DNA of 26,239 nucleotides from a virus. Position 1 is the first letter of the stretch, and the number at the start of each line of letters is the position of its first letter. Made by a program: the position numbers and the translations under genes. The DNA lies in the IMG/VR virus record IMGVR_UViG_3300032893_000252, positions 1-26,239 of that record. One strand, written 5' to 3'. Shown piece by piece: positions 2,186 through 26,167 of this stretch. The notes beneath the pieces are model-generated. The model was not told where the DNA came from, ran no database searches, and was given only the letters and a program-made list of their open reading frames with translations.

Positions 2186-2293
2186 CTACATCACCGTTGT
2201 ATTTGAATCCCGCACGGTAGTCAAGTATATAATTCCCATTTCAATAACGGCATCGCAAATATGTTTCAAGGCTTTTGCTTGTTCTAGTGTCAT
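2186..2293 (-). CDS. putative 35-aa leader-proximal peptide
   Basis: A short frame (MTLEQAKALKHICDAVIEMG...) starts at the ATG at 2293, twelve bases after the AGGAG that ends the 138-bp leader repeat. It stops 14 bases before the next ATG. The N-terminus is a plausible amphipathic helix. Its last third overlaps the 19-bp motif that is also found at the right end of the window. The position, first behind the promoter/leader, favours a real gene, but the length makes it uncertain. Confidence 0.4.
   Translation of the reverse strand: MTLEQAKALKHICDAVIEMGIIYLTTVRDSNTTVM
2219..2237 (-). promoter_or_regulatory. third copy of the right-end inverted-repeat motif
   Basis: On the minus strand this reads GGGAATTATATACTTGACT. 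It matches 18 of 19 bases of the inverted repeats at 25796-25820 and 26088-26112. It contains TATACT, close to a sigma70 -10 element. It lies 47 bases upstream of the ATG at 2171, in the same orientation as the right copy has to the ATG at 26065. A shared promoter or operator core is one reading; a solitary element end is the other. Confidence 0.5.
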
Positions 2294-3801: not shown

Positions 3802-4314
3802 TCATTCTACACTGGATTCCGGATAGCCCTTTTTGTGCTCGTGCTTGTTGGCTTCCAGTCCGCCGACAAAGCACTCATCAACTTCGACCGTGCCGCGCAG
3901 TTTGTCCATTCCGCCGCCGGGTCCGTCGCCGCCGCAAGCCTCGCGGAGCCGACCGAGGATGAACCACGCGGTTTTTTGAGTCACGCCGATTTCTTTCGCC
4001 AGTTGCAGGCTGGAGATGCCCTTGCGGGCGGTAACGAGCAAATACATGGCGTACAGCCACTTGTCCAATGGAACCTTCGAGCGTTCCATGACGGTGTTGG
4101 TCCGGACGGTGAAGTCAAAGCCGCACGGCAGGCAGCGATAGAAGCCCGCCTTGCGCGTGGCACAGGTGCCCAGGGCGCTGATGTGTTCGCCCGATCCGCA
4201 AGCCGGACAGACGGGGCCGGAGGGCCAGATGCGGCCCTCCAGGTAAATGCGGGCGGACTCTTCATCGGGAAACATCTGGAAGAGTTGGAAGGTGCTGATG
4301 GTGGAGCGGGACAT
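3802..4314 (-). pseudogene. IS1595-family (ISXO2-like) transposase, N-terminal half
   Basis: 170 aa out of a usual 300 or so. In order: a short lead (MSRSTISTFQLFQMFPDEES), a zinc ribbon (CPACGSG ... YRCLPCG, residues 35-65), a helix-turn-helix (SLQLAKEIGVTQKTAWFILG, about 100-120), and the first strand of the DDE/DDD nuclease (VEVDECFVGG, first catalytic Asp). It stops in KGYPESSVE, so the other catalytic residues are missing and it cannot transpose by itself. The ATG lies only three bases after the stop of the upstream phage gene, with no room for an element end, so it sits like an operon gene. It could be a scar or a retained DNA-binding domain. Confidence 0.8.
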
Positions 4315-4317
4315 GGC

Positions 4318-4866
4318 CTAATAACTCCCCGCGTAGGTGGAAATCTCAATGCTTTGATTAGGGCGGAACCATGCAAGATGAAGATCTTCGATGCCTCCGT
4401 TTCGATCCAGAAACGCAGGGGGAACGAGAAAGTATCCATACCGCTCGTTCTTGTAAGCCAAGGGGTTGGCATGCCCTTCGCGCGCATCTCGGTTCCAGCG
4501 CGTGAGCGAGTCGATGATATCCTGTCCGAGCGCCTTGCGCACGTCTTTGACGCGGGTATAAGCCGTCACGTGCCGGTTGCCATTGCCGTCCCAGAATCCG
4601 ACGCCTACAGCGTCGGTGTCGAGGAGCGGCAATTCAAGGTTGTGGCGATCAGCCATGGCAACAGCCATTGCTTTCGTGATCGTCCGGCCGGAGCACGAAA
4701 CAACGTCGCCGCCTTCGCGGTCCAGCCACGTATGCCAATGGTAGCCACCGTTGCTATTGCAGTGAGCGATACGGCGAAGCAGCCCGTTCTTGAGTGTGAT
4801 GTCCAAGCGGGCATCGATGGATTCTTGCGAGCACTGAATCATGTCTTTCATGTCTCTATATTTCAT
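4318..4866 (-). CDS. hypothetical phage protein, unknown fold
   Basis: A 182-aa protein if started at the ATG at 4866 (MKYRDMKDMIQCSQESIDAR). I chose this start because GGAAGGA lies about nine bases upstream, as in the matching repeat at 1258. The same frame continues upstream to an ATG at 4917 with its own AGGAG, adding MTATLERFFEKGEGPKT, an echo of the 81-aa gene's tail. Recognisable chunks are GYHWHTWLDREGGDVVSCSG, VGVGFWDGNGNRHVTAYTRV and YGYFLVPPAFLDRNGGIEDL. It is soluble, with no signal or membrane segment. It precedes the transposase fragment by three bases. Family unknown. Confidence 0.65.
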   Translation of the reverse strand: MKYRDMKDMIQCSQESIDARLDITLKNGLLRRIAHCNSNGGYHWHTWLDREGGDVVSCSGRTITKAMAVAMADRHNLELPLLDTDAVGVGFWDGNGNRHVTAYTRVKDVRKALGQDIIDSLTRWNRDAREGHANPLAYKNERYGYFLVPPAFLDRNGGIEDLHLAWFRPNQSIEISTYAGSY

Positions 4867-4906
4867 TGTTTTTGGTCCTTCCCCTTTTTCAAAAAATCTT
4901 TCCAGA
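4861..4906. repeat. 46-bp direct repeat, copy 2
   Basis: Counterpart of 1253-1297 with one extra T. Because of that base the minus-strand upstream frame does not stop but runs in phase into the 182-aa gene, creating a 17-residue N-terminal extension. This looks like a recombination joint between paralogous gene boundaries. Confidence 0.9.
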
Positions 4907-5037: not shown

Positions 5038-5175
5038 GGCTCCTATTCCCTGATCTATACTTGCACATTGTTTTGTATTTCGATCCTAGGATTTTGAGGG
5101 TATCATGCGGAACTTTTGCGGGTAGAACGATAGGCGAAACCAGTACCACGAAGCGAACGAAGAACCACTCTTCCC
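5038..5175 (-). promoter_or_regulatory. 138-bp promoter/leader repeat, copy B
   Basis: Second copy of the promoter/leader described at 2304-2441, with the palindrome at 5083-5092 and the ribosome site AGGAG at its left end. It heads the operon 5030 to 3802. The two copies differ at only two positions although the genes behind them are unrelated, which suggests recent duplication or gene conversion, or strong constraint. Confidence 0.6.
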
Positions 5176-11898: not shown

Positions 11899-12146
11899 TC
11901 TTCTACCTCATTCAACCATTCTTCGAGAACACTCGGCTTCTTCGGAGTATCTCCCATATAGGAAATCTCCGTATCGGTCTTCGAGGGCATCTCTGTAAGA
12001 CGGATGATCGGAGCAGGATTTCCCAGATGGTCTTTTCGTTCGGACAGTTCCAGTTCATAAAGTTCGCGGATAATCCGTAGTTCCTCTGCAATGACGGAGA
12101 AAGGCGCGAGCAGTTCCTTGAGACGCTGATAGATTCTAGGAATCAT
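11895..12146 (-). CDS. small hypothetical protein (83 aa)
   Basis: Starts MIPRIYQRLKELLAPFSVIA, a helix-rich protein continuing with EELRIIRELYELELSERKDH (probable coiled coil) and an acidic end (EEWLNEVEE). The start overlaps the end of the small-terminase-like gene by 11 bases and the stop overlaps the micro-protein ATG. The family is not recognised; an assembly or terminase-accessory role is suggested only by its place. Confidence 0.65.
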   Translation of the reverse strand: MIPRIYQRLKELLAPFSVIAEELRIIRELYELELSERKDHLGNPAPIIRLTEMPSKTDTEISYMGDTPKKPSVLEEWLNEVEE

Positions 12147-12789
12147 GATCTACATCCACCGTGATTGCATCCAGTCTGCGGATGGCGCTTGGCAATGCCT
12201 GACCGCCAAAGTTCTGGATGATGGCGATGCCCGCGCCTTTCTTGTTGATGAGTCCTGCCATTTCCAGGGACTTGGATCGTGACGAATCATCTCCGGGCGT
12301 CCTGACGAATCCCTTGGCCCGGCAGACCGGACAATCCCTGATCCACCCCTCACCCATTGGACGATAGCCTGGAGTTTCCGGTGGAAGATCCTTGACGGCT
12401 GCGATCCAGGTCAGACCATCGCAGCGGTGGCACGCGACGAACTTTGAACGTGCGTCCTCAAGCGTATCCTGAACAATGGCGGGAGAATGGGTTTGCACAA
12501 TTGCGATCGCCCGTTGATTGGAAGCTCGCGAGAACCACTCCATGAACTCATCGAGCGGAATGTTGCAGGACTTGGCGATGGTTTGCAGTTTGGTTCCCGG
12601 CTGAGTTGGATCACTCATCCTTTCAAGGAATGCTCGGAATCTCGGGTCGGGAGACGAAGCCAGGGCTAAGCGAACCTCTTCGCGTTGCGGGTCGATGTGC
12701 TTTAAATACTCCTCGTACTCTTTGTCTTTATAGCCATTAACCCTGGCCGGCACGGTTCCGCGTAACTTCTCCTTGATGGTTCGCCGCAT
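12136..12789 (-). CDS. terminase small subunit-like protein with zinc-ribbon
   Basis: 217 aa. The N-terminus is basic (MRRTIKEKLRGTVPARVNGY). Residues 75-110 contain a helix-turn-helix-like segment (KLQTIAKSCNIPLDEFMEWF), as in small terminases that recognise the packaging site. Residues about 137-180 hold CHRC and, after a 30-residue loop, CPVC, a zinc ribbon. It is the first gene of the packaging operon, directly upstream of the large-terminase cluster, which supports the call. ATG 12789 has AGGA seven bases upstream. A transcription factor is the main alternative. Confidence 0.55.
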   Translation of the reverse strand: MRRTIKEKLRGTVPARVNGYKDKEYEEYLKHIDPQREEVRLALASSPDPRFRAFLERMSDPTQPGTKLQTIAKSCNIPLDEFMEWFSRASNQRAIAIVQTHSPAIVQDTLEDARSKFVACHRCDGLTWIAAVKDLPPETPGYRPMGEGWIRDCPVCRAKGFVRTPGDDSSRSKSLEMAGLINKKGAGIAIIQNFGGQALPSAIRRLDAITVDVDHDS

Positions 12790-22532: not shown

Positions 22533-25500
22533 ATGAGATATCTTATATTCCTTCTTACTTCATCGGCGTTCGCGGCGCAATCCGTGGTTATGAACGGAAG
22601 CTACACCGGTTCATTTACTGTTACGAACAGCTTACCTTTCAGTAGTTTGACTTCGATGGTGTGGGATTTTAGATTCACAAATTTCACCTATCCCTTATCC
22701 TGTACGATCATCAATCAATACGGCGGACAACTGAGAATCTGCCCGTCCTCTACGTTCGGGAAAACGCTGGTATGGTTCGGCCCGGACACAACTGCTGGAG
22801 GCGTACCTGGATTGATCGAACCCCCAAGCGTGGTTATTACGGCCATCAGCGCTACGAATCCGACCGTGCTTACCGTGGCATCTGCGCCATTGACAAACAC
22901 GATGATTGTTGGATCTTCGGTAGCAATCGGCAACGTAGCCGGAACGGGATGCACCGGAATCAATGGCAACCAGACGATCACCGCCGTCACTACGACGTAT
23001 CCCTATACGATCACCGTCAGTTACAATTCCACTGGTTGCTCTGGGTACACAGCTTCCAGCGGAAGCGTCTATTCGCGGGAGTTTCTCCTTCGTGTTCACC
23101 GAGACTTACTTGCAAATGCAGTTACGATGGAATCTTGGAACGTCGATGGAACAGGATATATAAGTTCTTCGGTCGGCATAACCGCTACGGGAAGTCTTGG
23201 TGGACTGCCGACATCGGAGCAGATTGGAGATTCCAACTCCACCTACGCTCTAGCCTATCTACGATGGTATAAGGGAGTTCTATCATCTGGCGCCAAGCCT
23301 CCCTGGGGAAGTTCCTGTAATATCACTGGACTAAGTTGTTTAGGAGACTGGGAGTTCGAAGGAAACGGCAATGATTCATCTGGGTACGGTCTGAATGTGA
23401 CTTTTACGAGTTCAGCATCTTATGTAACAACGCCGATTTACAATCCAGCCTGTCCTAGCCTTCCTCAGTTAACCGTTCTAGCGGGAACTTCCATGAAATT
23501 CGATTGGTCTTCTTGCTTTCCTCTGGACGGAGGATCATCGCTAACTTATTCGGCGACTCAGGATACATATACGGCTAATGGAGTAATTGCGCAGGCTCCT
23601 GCATGGTCAGGAGCGACTACAGCCACTCCGACCGTGACTGGACTGAAATCATCGTTCGGCAGGTCAATTATTGGGCCTTTCAATGTAATGCTGACAGTAA
23701 CGGATGGCAGCGCCAATTCAAGCACTTTTCACAATCACAACGGCGTAGTAAATGCGGATGTCTTTGGACACATTCAATATCCTGATTCTCGCTTCGGAAC
23801 AATTATTGGACCACAGGTCGCCTCCGTCTCTTACGTTACTTGGCCTTGGTACCAGACGATCAGTACGCTATGGGGACAGCGCCTTGGTGGATTCCAAGGA
23901 ACGATCCAGGCTCCCACTTATGTTTACGTCTTCCAGCCTACTTGGAACACGGCCGTAGCTGCTGCCACAATGACGGCTACGAATGGCTCCGCCACGGTAT
24001 CATTCTCAGGCTATAATCCGCAGAGTGCTTTGCCGGGATGTACAAACTCTACCGCTCCCTCTGCAAACAGTTATCTCGTCGGATGGTATGCCTTCCCTTC
24101 TGCATTTGGTCTTTCCGGAGGCACAACCGGTCGGCGCATTTACCAGATATCGACTTGTCCGTCCACGTCCAGCGTCACGATTGCTCAGAATTGGAGTCCG
24201 CCCTCGCAGAGTGGGATGCAGTTTGCCATCATCTATGATTCCACCGTAGGATCGTGGATAAATGGAAGCGCCAACATAAACTACTATGATGATGTGCTGG
24301 CATTTTACACTCAGTTCTTTGGTAGCGGAATTGAAGATTATCTTAACTGGGCCAGGTATCTTGCAGACGCATGGTGGGCTTCTCCGTGGATCGACAAGGG
24401 CAATCCGAATGATTGCGGATCGAACCTCTCGCTATGTGAAAACTTCGGAGTGTTTCCGCGGTTGATGTCGTTTACGGGGATGTATCTTCGTGCAATCGAC
24501 CAGGATTTGATTTCTGGGACTCCCGGATCAAGCCCTATGTGGCTTGGTTTGCAAAGCATCGTGGTAGGCGGCGGAGTGGTTTCTGGAAGTACCACAGGAG
24601 CACTTGGTTATACGATGAACGCCCGAGTCTCGGGTCCTTACCTGGCGGGCGATATGCGGGAAAATTCTTATAACGATATGTTCGTGGCGTTAGAGACGTG
24701 GCTTGATCCTACTCTTTCGATCGGAAATAGATCCACTTGGCTATCAAATCTCTCCGCGGCGCTTTCGTTATGGGGATCTGGGAGACAGTCTGACGGACAT
24801 TGGCAATCTTTCGCGGGGACGTATAGCAACGTCAATGCAACATGGTCAGATATCAGCAATACCTGGCCTTCGGCTTGTAGCGTCACTGCGACAAATGGAA
24901 CTACGACAGTTACGCTCGCAAGTTGCGCGAATACTTTTTCGAGCGGTATGTTCACCGATACCTGCTCAGGATCTCCGTGTGCTGAGATATTCATGTTCGG
25001 TTCTCCCTACAGTACGAACCAGCGCGATTCTCAGTACTACTTATGTACTTACGTCAATTCAACCACCTGTACGCTCAACACGAATTACTTGGGAACCACC
25101 GGAAGCGGAAAGAATTGGGTACTATCTAGCAATTCAACTACAGGAAGTAACGGGGCATGGATAGGTTTCGGAACGCAGCCCTTCACACAGGGCATCAATG
25201 GGTGGATGTATTACTTCATGGCCCAAGCCTTTCTCTCTGGATCTGGTTATGGAGCGCCGGCGGCAACTGCTCTAGGTTACGTCTATGATGCCGCAAACTG
25301 GATCAGCACGAGCACGCTGACTGGAGCGGGAGGGACAGACCCGGCCACCCGTGGAGCATTATATGGCGTGGGATTTGGAATCTGTACGCCTGGATCATCG
25401 ACCGGCTCCGATGGTTGTAGATGTGCAAGCCTGAATGCCTCTTGCAGCACCATACAGGCAAGCCGTGAAAACATAGGAGAGGCCCTTGGGGAACTCGCAA

Positions 25501-25790
25501 TTGGATACACAGTAAAGCCCAATGTCGCTCTGGCGTCACAGATCAATAACGTCTACAGTGCGTGTTTTGCTAAGTATCCCGCCAACAGTGGATACGATGG
25601 TAGCTACTGTTGGGACTATGATCCAAATGGCCCAGGTGGATCTGGATCATTCTGGCTGACCAACAGCGGCAAATGGTATGGATTCCTAAGTGGAATGGGA
25701 CGCAACGAACTGTGGCAGGGAGTTTATTTTTCTTCTGGAGGAGTAACTTCCTCTAAAGGTATTGGTATTTCTGGGCAGGTCGTGAAGTAA
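22533..25790 (+). CDS. large secreted tailspike/depolymerase-like protein
   Basis: 1085 aa. Residues 1-15 are a signal peptide (MRYLIFLLTSSAFAAQS). Residues 18-260 resemble a LamG/concanavalin domain (LLRVHRDLLANAVTMESWNV; closing GDWEFEGNGNDSSGYGLNVT), interrupted near 95-180 by an FCCH-like module (VAIGNVAGTGCTGINGNQTI). Residues about 310-395 look like a PKD domain. Residues about 560-1000 are largely helical with many aromatic residues (YYDDVLAFYTQFFGSGIEDY; YLADAWWASPW; GWMYYFMAQAFLSGSGYG), suggesting an alpha/alpha-toroid of the kind found in polysaccharide lyases. The catalytic role is inferred, with no motif identified. Its TAA lies inside the left 8-bp direct repeat. Confidence 0.6.
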   Translation: MRYLIFLLTSSAFAAQSVVMNGSYTGSFTVTNSLPFSSLTSMVWDFRFTNFTYPLSCTIINQYGGQLRICPSSTFGKTLVWFGPDTTAGGVPGLIEPPSVVITAISATNPTVLTVASAPLTNTMIVGSSVAIGNVAGTGCTGINGNQTITAVTTTYPYTITVSYNSTGCSGYTASSGSVYSREFLLRVHRDLLANAVTMESWNVDGTGYISSSVGITATGSLGGLPTSEQIGDSNSTYALAYLRWYKGVLSSGAKPPWGSSCNITGLSCLGDWEFEGNGNDSSGYGLNVTFTSSASYVTTPIYNPACPSLPQLTVLAGTSMKFDWSSCFPLDGGSSLTYSATQDTYTANGVIAQAPAWSGATTATPTVTGLKSSFGRSIIGPFNVMLTVTDGSANSSTFHNHNGVVNADVFGHIQYPDSRFGTIIGPQVASVSYVTWPWYQTISTLWGQRLGGFQGTIQAPTYVYVFQPTWNTAVAAATMTATNGSATVSFSGYNPQSALPGCTNSTAPSANSYLVGWYAFPSAFGLSGGTTGRRIYQISTCPSTSSVTIAQNWSPPSQSGMQFAIIYDSTVGSWINGSANINYYDDVLAFYTQFFGSGIEDYLNWARYLADAWWASPWIDKGNPNDCGSNLSLCENFGVFPRLMSFTGMYLRAIDQDLISGTPGSSPMWLGLQSIVVGGGVVSGSTTGALGYTMNARVSGPYLAGDMRENSYNDMFVALETWLDPTLSIGNRSTWLSNLSAALSLWGSGRQSDGHWQSFAGTYSNVNATWSDISNTWPSACSVTATNGTTTVTLASCANTFSSGMFTDTCSGSPCAEIFMFGSPYSTNQRDSQYYLCTYVNSTTCTLNTNYLGTTGSGKNWVLSSNSTTGSNGAWIGFGTQPFTQGINGWMYYFMAQAFLSGSGYGAPAATALGYVYDAANWISTSTLTGAGGTDPATRGALYGVGFGICTPGSSTGSDGCRCASLNASCSTIQASRENIGEALGELAIGYTVKPNVALASQINNVYSACFAKYPANSGYDGSYCWDYDPNGPGGSGSFWLTNSGKWYGFLSGMGRNELWQGVYFSSGGVTSSKGIGISGQVVK

Positions 25791-25795
25791 AAAAG

Positions 25796-25820
25796 GGGAT
25801 TTATATACTTGACTCCCCAA
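25796..25820 (+). repeat. 25-bp inverted repeat, left arm
   Basis: Starts GGGATTTATATACTTGACTC and ends CCCAA. It is the exact reverse complement of 26088-26112. It is immediately preceded by TAAAAAAG (25788-25795), which also follows the right arm. Read on the minus strand, GGGGA and TCCCC within it can pair and are followed by six T, so it can also act as a terminator for the 79-aa gene. Confidence 0.9.
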
Positions 25821-25825
25821 AGGGA

Positions 25826-26065
25826 TCAATTCTTCGGAGGGTCAGCCTCCGTTATGTCGAAGTAGTAACTCTTCCCGATTACCAACTGCTCAAGGGCTTT
25901 CGGGTTATCAATCTGAAATTCGGCCTGTCCAGACGGTGTTGCCTTCTGGAATCCAGCGTCCTCTTCGCAGATTTTCGGGTCATACTGGCAGGAGAAAATA
26001 GCCTTGAATCCTCCCCACGTCTGCCCGAACACTCCCTGCAGGGTCATCTTTGCTCGAATCGCCAT
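25826..26065 (-). CDS. conserved small phage protein (79 aa)
   Basis: The pattern MAIRAKMTLQGVFGQTWGGF, then 'FQKATPSGQAEFQIDNPKAL' and 'QLVIGKSYYFDITEADPP', matches a widespread small phage protein of unknown function that I remember with the form MRAKF...ATPsGxIEMxIDNPaA...pGKxYYVDFTPA. It is soluble and strand-rich. ATG 26065 has AAGGAG nine bases upstream. The gene is the only content between the two 25-bp inverted repeats and has its own terminator-like arm, so it is a self-contained cassette read against the fibre operon. Confidence 0.75.
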   Translation of the reverse strand: MAIRAKMTLQGVFGQTWGGFKAIFSCQYDPKICEEDAGFQKATPSGQAEFQIDNPKALEQLVIGKSYYFDITEADPPKN

Positions 26066-26087
26066 AAATTCACTCTCCTTTCGCCCC

Positions 26088-26112
26088 TTGGGGAGTCAAG
26101 TATATAAATCCC
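26088..26112 (-). repeat. 25-bp inverted repeat, right arm (possible promoter)
   Basis: Exact reverse complement of 25796-25820. It is followed at once by TAAAAAAG (26113-26120). In the minus direction it carries TATACT, a possible -10, 23 bases before the ATG at 26065 and directly after an upstream terminator, so it is a good promoter position. Confidence 0.85.
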
Positions 26113-26113
26113 T

Positions 26114-26167
26114 AAAAAAGGTGCGACGTTTCCTGAGTCAGCGACCCGGAGGCTTTCGCGCCGCACC
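26114..26167 (-). terminator. rho-independent terminator (leftward)
   Basis: On the minus strand GGTGCGGCG (26159-26167) pairs with CGTCGCACC (26120-26128), with one G-T pair, and is followed by six T (26114-26119). The loop of about 30 bases may fold further. It closes the partial gene at the right edge and isolates the 79-aa cassette. Confidence 0.6.

Follow-up and report, generated by a model that had tools for sequence, protein, structure and literature searches.

A 317-bp segment of viral DNA that is very probably an IS1595-type mobile insertion cassette around one captured phage gene

Introduction

How single accessory genes move between phages is a long-standing question. The usual explanation is homologous or illegitimate recombination, of which a clear trace is rare. 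The usual definition of a phage moron gives the extra gene its own promoter and terminator, and provides no mechanism for its transfer. In the IS1595 family, passenger genes are reportedly known, an observation said to go back to Siguier et al. in 2009. Members of this family have 8-bp, AT-rich target-site duplications (TSDs), and the ends of one of them, ISApl4, start with GGGG (PMC8101967, PMC12561309). MIC231 is a mobile insertion cassette that is moved by the IS231 transposase in trans (PMC1196294).

The window analysed here is a stretch of viral DNA of 26,239 bases that carries portal, terminase and endolysin-like genes. It contains a segment that measures 317 bp from arm to arm and that is, with high probability, a non-autonomous member of the IS1595 family, of the mobile-insertion-cassette type, built around one captured phage gene and moved in trans. 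Like MIC231, it has IS-type inverted repeats on both sides of a cargo gene and no transposase gene of its own, which is the structure of a mobile insertion cassette; MIC231 has IS231 ends and belongs to Bacillus, whereas the ends here are of the IS1595 type and the carriers are phages. The cassettes described below also differ from MIC231 in holding many different single genes in compact units, one or two per phage. The element resembles MITEs in being short, bounded by terminal inverted repeats (TIRs), flanked by TSDs and non-autonomous, but MITEs have no coding capacity, whereas one conserved coding gene fills this element, which thus falls outside that class. As with a phage moron, an extra gene stands between two phage genes and leaves both undisturbed; it differs from a moron in that the machinery for its transfer can be seen. 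Integron gene cassettes, too, are small mobile units that each hold one gene and hardly any non-coding DNA, a likeness that extends to a tandem pair in one contig (L287), but the cassettes here have TIR ends, TSDs and a DDE-type transposase, and no incidental sign of attC sites or integron integrases was noticed. No report of phage-borne single-gene IS1595 cassettes was found in the open-access literature searched.

Boundaries of the element

The preliminary description of this DNA had placed the arms at 25796-25820 and 26088-26112 as exact reverse complements, each abutted on its outer side by the same 8-mer. Both statements proved correct: the arms form a perfect inverted repeat of 25 nt, and TAAAAAAG occurs exactly twice in the window, directly outside the two arms. 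The inverted match reaches 29 nt if one mismatch is allowed, and the features of the locus are as follows.

25788..25795, no strand: left TSD, TAAAAAAG; exact 8-bp TSDs are the norm with TIRs of this family
25796..25824, plus strand: left TIR, which fits the family TIR consensus
25826..26065, minus strand: cargo gene of 79 aa, a small conserved phage protein matching the C-terminal region of phrog_6978, with an SD-like AAAGGAG just upstream
26084..26112, minus strand: right TIR, the inverted-repeat match to the left arm
26113..26120, no strand: right TSD, TAAAAAAG; on the minus strand, the T tract of the convergent gene's hairpin terminator
26120..26166, minus strand: terminator hairpin of the convergent minus-strand gene (RNA fold of the right flank, -28.6 kcal/mol), followed by TTTTTTA

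The 8-bp target of the insertion is thus the T tract of a terminator that lies between two convergent genes. The left TSD takes in the TAA stop of the tail-like gene upstream (22533-25790), so that neither neighbouring gene is broken. A consensus scan of the element for sigma-70 promoters and terminators found no promoter-like or terminator-like site; the hairpin at 26120-26166 is missing from its list because the scan had a loop limit of 8 nt. Whereas a composite transposon has two full IS copies around its cargo, the element in the window has ends of only 25-29 nt.

Membership of the IS1595 family

The arms are the TIRs of a large group of IS1595-type transposons with the consensus GGGAATTATATACTTGACTCCC. 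Searching the arm against phage contigs had been proposed at the outset, and a scan of viral contigs with GGGNNTTATATACTTGACT located the motif in at least 119 stretches, with many convergent pairs 300-3500 bp apart; among the matches listed, it was likewise present in bacterial genome contigs. An exact 8-bp TSD flanked 90 of 130 candidate TIR pairs (fetched loci, among the matches listed), against a mean of 0.96 and a maximum of 4 when the right flanks were shuffled among the 130 pairs. None of the pairs had a direct repeat at an offset of 1-3 bp, and in none did the repeat extend to 9 bp. The 8-mers of the family are 84% A+T.

Since TAAAAAAG is of low complexity, one might suspect that an accidental inverted repeat coincides here with an accidental direct repeat in a T-rich terminator. 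In 60 Markov-shuffled windows, however, perfect inverted repeats within 400 bp reached at most 15 nt, as against 25 nt in the window, and the recurrence of the arm motif across viral contigs also speaks against coincidence, which we regard as having a negligible probability. As the exact direct repeats of the family are 8 bp long and abut the arms (offset 0), with essentially none of another size or position, the TAAAAAAG pair is a TSD and chance is ruled out for it. The preliminary description was therefore right in noting that this 8-mer serves as a terminator T tract, which it does because that tract was the insertion target, but not in its concern that the direct repeat could be accidental.

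The longer elements of the group encode a transposase of ~305 aa with Zn_ribbon_IS1595 and DDE_Tnp_IS1595 domains, and NCBIfam assigned all 14 of the 14 transposases tested to the IS1595 family. Among the matches listed, 41 viral and 28 genomic elements with this TIR consensus have internal frames that fit the IS1595 transposase profile, and in many of these autonomous relatives passenger genes stand beside the transposase. In INPHARED, the transposase has only three remote matches, at up to 37%. The element in the window shares with the family its TIR consensus, the GGG start of its TIRs and the 8-bp, AT-rich TSD, present on both sides as TAAAAAAG; unlike an autonomous IS it has no transposase, the 79-aa phage gene being the only ORF of note inside it, and it is hence a derivative and not an IS. 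The first reading offered for this segment, a small transposon-like element with a TSD, is supported by these data: a further 122 elements with exact 8-bp TSDs have these arms as their ends (among the matches listed), many of them with an IS1595 transposase.

The cargo gene

Judged from its sequence, the 79-aa ORF is a real gene, because it matches the C-terminal 73 residues of PHROG phrog_6978 (E=1e-10), has relatives in six viral contigs (39-81% identity) and shows saturated synonymous change relative to the nearest of these, L006 (81%; about 78% amino-acid and 64% nucleotide identity in the comparison of synonymous change). Its earlier designation as a conserved phage gene is thereby upheld. 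The gene, which is coding, conserved and under purifying selection, fills 75% of the 317-bp element, and its start and stop codons lie 47 nt and 30 nt from the element's ends, as in other cassettes of the family. Its homologues in L006-L011 are part of ordinary phage operons with TIRs absent nearby, and therefore the gene was most likely captured from a phage. It had been argued that a mobile origin would fail if related phages always carried the gene at this place with diverged arms; the relatives instead carry it elsewhere, without the arms.

Among the isolated phages of INPHARED, the protein matches one genome, which is present under two accessions. Rhizobium phage PPF1 has a homologue (37.5%) in its baseplate cluster, with baseplate genes on both sides. 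The AlphaFold model of the protein is of moderate confidence (pLDDT 75); the predicted fold has no significant match in the PDB, and in BFVD it matches only uncharacterised phage proteins.

Single-gene cassettes in other viral contigs

After a second viral scan had added loci, a set of 123 unique elements with exact TSDs was compiled, 84 from viral contigs and 39 from GTDB genomes (among the matches listed); as a sample, it is biased towards exact TIR variants. Among these matches, an IS1595 transposase is encoded by 41 of the 84 viral elements, leaving 43 without one, and by 28 of the 39 elements from GTDB genomes, four others of which are empty MITEs of 170-181 bp. The difference between viral and genome elements (Fisher p=0.02; with the empty MITEs excluded, 0.002) likewise applies to the matches listed, and its proportions are indicative only.

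Most of the 43 transposase-less viral elements measure 277-1300 bp, each filled by one ORF. The longest ORF covers a median of 85% of these elements, compared with 49% in control windows of the same length from the same contigs, with the start codon usually 22-53 nt inside one end and the stop codon 5-35 nt inside the opposite end. Forty cargoes were tested for family membership, yielding (raw counts) six N4/N6 DNA methyltransferases, one C5 methyltransferase, one methyltransferase of the D12/Dam type, two Mom-like DNA-modification proteins by PHROGs, two PAPS-reductase-like proteins and a TnpB, together with many small proteins without a family. The GC content of the cassettes is barely correlated with that of their flanks (r=0.17), which is in line with a foreign origin. 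Terminase, portal, head maturation protease and primase genes are among the neighbours, which makes at least some of the carriers phages. By a crude ORF criterion, the insertions showed no clear depletion within genes (10 of 19 short viral elements, against 197 of 311 AT-matched control sites).

A typical cassette record has one pair of TIR ends. In L287 (477-1956), two transposase-less cassettes stand in tandem with the TSD CTATATTG in three copies, forming an array of cassettes at one site, and in L025 one cassette lies inside the TIR of another. Contig L059 has two separate cassettes (1658-2462 and 11961-12588), one with an N4/N6 DNA methyltransferase and the other with a Mom-like DNA modification gene. 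In L334 (2001-3178), an IS1595-ended element has as its only large ORF a TnpB-like gene (OrfB_IS605/Cas12f1-like), an accessory nuclease of one transposon that is borne by the ends of another. Identical empty MITEs of 170 bp with the same TIRs occur at different sites in one Oligoflexia MAG (L135, L180 and L203).

The presence of single-gene cassettes in dozens of uncultivated phages suggests a concrete way in which accessory genes are swapped. The trace of gene movement is visible here in defined ends, 8-bp target duplications, empty sites and one gene per unit, and cassettes that move in trans would let phages exchange genes, those for anti-restriction among them, with neither sequence similarity nor a transposase of their own. 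A broader proposal is that IS1595 transposases act as the shared carrier for a pool of compact single-gene phage cassettes, enriched in DNA-modification (anti-restriction) and small phage genes and able to accumulate in tandem with a single TSD between them (as in L287), and so constitute a general route of accessory-gene exchange; we consider the case for it evenly balanced. The TIR can serve as a search key for new accessory phage genes, and the short, well-defined ends of the cassettes make cassette movement directly testable in the laboratory.

Evidence for mobility

Comparison of contigs supports mobility of the family through near-identical dispersed copies, two empty sites and one cassette-free relative. 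Elements that are 99.7-99.9% identical occupy three unrelated sites (L072, L313 and L326), 96% identical elements occupy unrelated sites in L112 and L130, and a transposase-less methyltransferase cassette, 91% identical between L102 and L109, is likewise found at unrelated sites. The empty site of L358 is present in L070, gap-free and with one target copy that has one substitution, and that of L283 in L330, gap-free and with a single target copy. L066 carries a transposase-less methyltransferase cassette, and L362, its 70%-identical relative, has the same two neighbour genes without that cassette, a comparison made at the level of genes and not of the nucleotide junction.

The preliminary description had also proposed looking for empty sites. 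This succeeded for the family, in the two pairs above, but not for the insertion in the window, whose empty site would read GTCGTGAAGTAAAAAAGGTGCGACG with a single TAAAAAAG: the flanking tail gene has no relatives in IMG/VR through which it could be found. A further search for an empty site, made through the L105 neighbour, led only to the same virus, with the cassette present. No second TIR-bound copy of the 317-bp cassette was found.

These comparisons bear on three further readings that had been raised for the segment. The arms might belong to a regulatory arrangement, either a moron whose promoter and terminator share a sequence or a duplicated operator that binds a factor, and this would suit both the TATATA and TTGACT within the arms and the right TSD's role as a T tract. 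The same arms, however, enclose unrelated contents, always with exact 8-bp duplications, and are thus not specific to one gene; empty sites do occur, and the consensus scan of the element was negative. We therefore regard this as very unlikely. Pairing of the two ends of an mRNA leaves identical arms around unrelated genes unexplained. One gene between inverted arms would also be expected of a segment flipped by a site-specific recombinase, but the element has no recombinase and involves no invertase, inversion would not make duplications outside the arms, and the outside TSDs, empty sites and dispersed copies are marks of transposition; the probability of inversion is accordingly minute.

Source of the transposase

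The transposase profile was compared with the 38 viral records that hold a transposase-less cassette: 31 gave no match, and two contain a full-length gene. Because cassette contigs mostly have no transposase, movement in trans would be the likeliest mode, although most contigs are incomplete, so that a transposase could sit off-contig. Two traces of IS1595-type elements lie in the window outside the cassette.

3802..4314, minus strand: truncated IS1595 transposase, N-terminal half with the zinc ribbon and the region of the first catalytic Asp (model positions 1-151 of 305)
2219..2237, minus strand: lone right end belonging to this TIR family, GGGAATTATATACTTGACT, whose partner is absent from the contig

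The fragment is the only IS1595 transposase sequence on the contig, where no full-length gene was found, and it indicates that the phage has met an IS1595-type IS. Lying 1.6 kb apart, the solitary end and the half-length transposase are the remains of at least one autonomous element in the same phage.

Such remains, together with the passenger genes that adjoin the transposase in many autonomous relatives, would fit a different history, in which an autonomous IS1595 element with its passenger gene entered the phage and later lost the transposase by internal deletion, leaving a fossil. On the other hand, the transposase-less cassettes are compact, with a single ORF about equally far from both ends, and the cassette shared by L102 and L109 is found at two unrelated sites without a transposase, which fits movement in the reduced state. 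We hold such a deletion to be rather unlikely. A gene held between TIRs may nonetheless have lost the ability to move and persist as a fossil.

Under the preferred reading of a cassette moved in trans, the IS1595 transposase would come from a copy in the host, from a co-infecting phage or from an element that this phage formerly carried. It would recognise the TIRs and place the cassette, which in the window probably arrived from elsewhere, into the AT-rich 8-bp T tract of the terminator, duplicating TAAAAAAG and leaving both neighbour genes intact. As only ~25 nt separate the TIR from the start codon, expression of the cargo gene would probably depend on read-through or on a promoter arising at the TIR.

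Two repeats were also observed in the window, a direct repeat of 138 bp (2304-2441 and 5038-5175, 98.6% identical), which brackets the region of the truncated transposase, and a repeat of 46 bp (1253-1297 and 4861-4906); duplication, a recombination scar or an assembly artefact are possible origins. A 278-aa ORF at 150-986 on the minus strand consists largely of Gly/Tyr/Asp/Ser repeats, with a period of 6/12 bp in the DNA.
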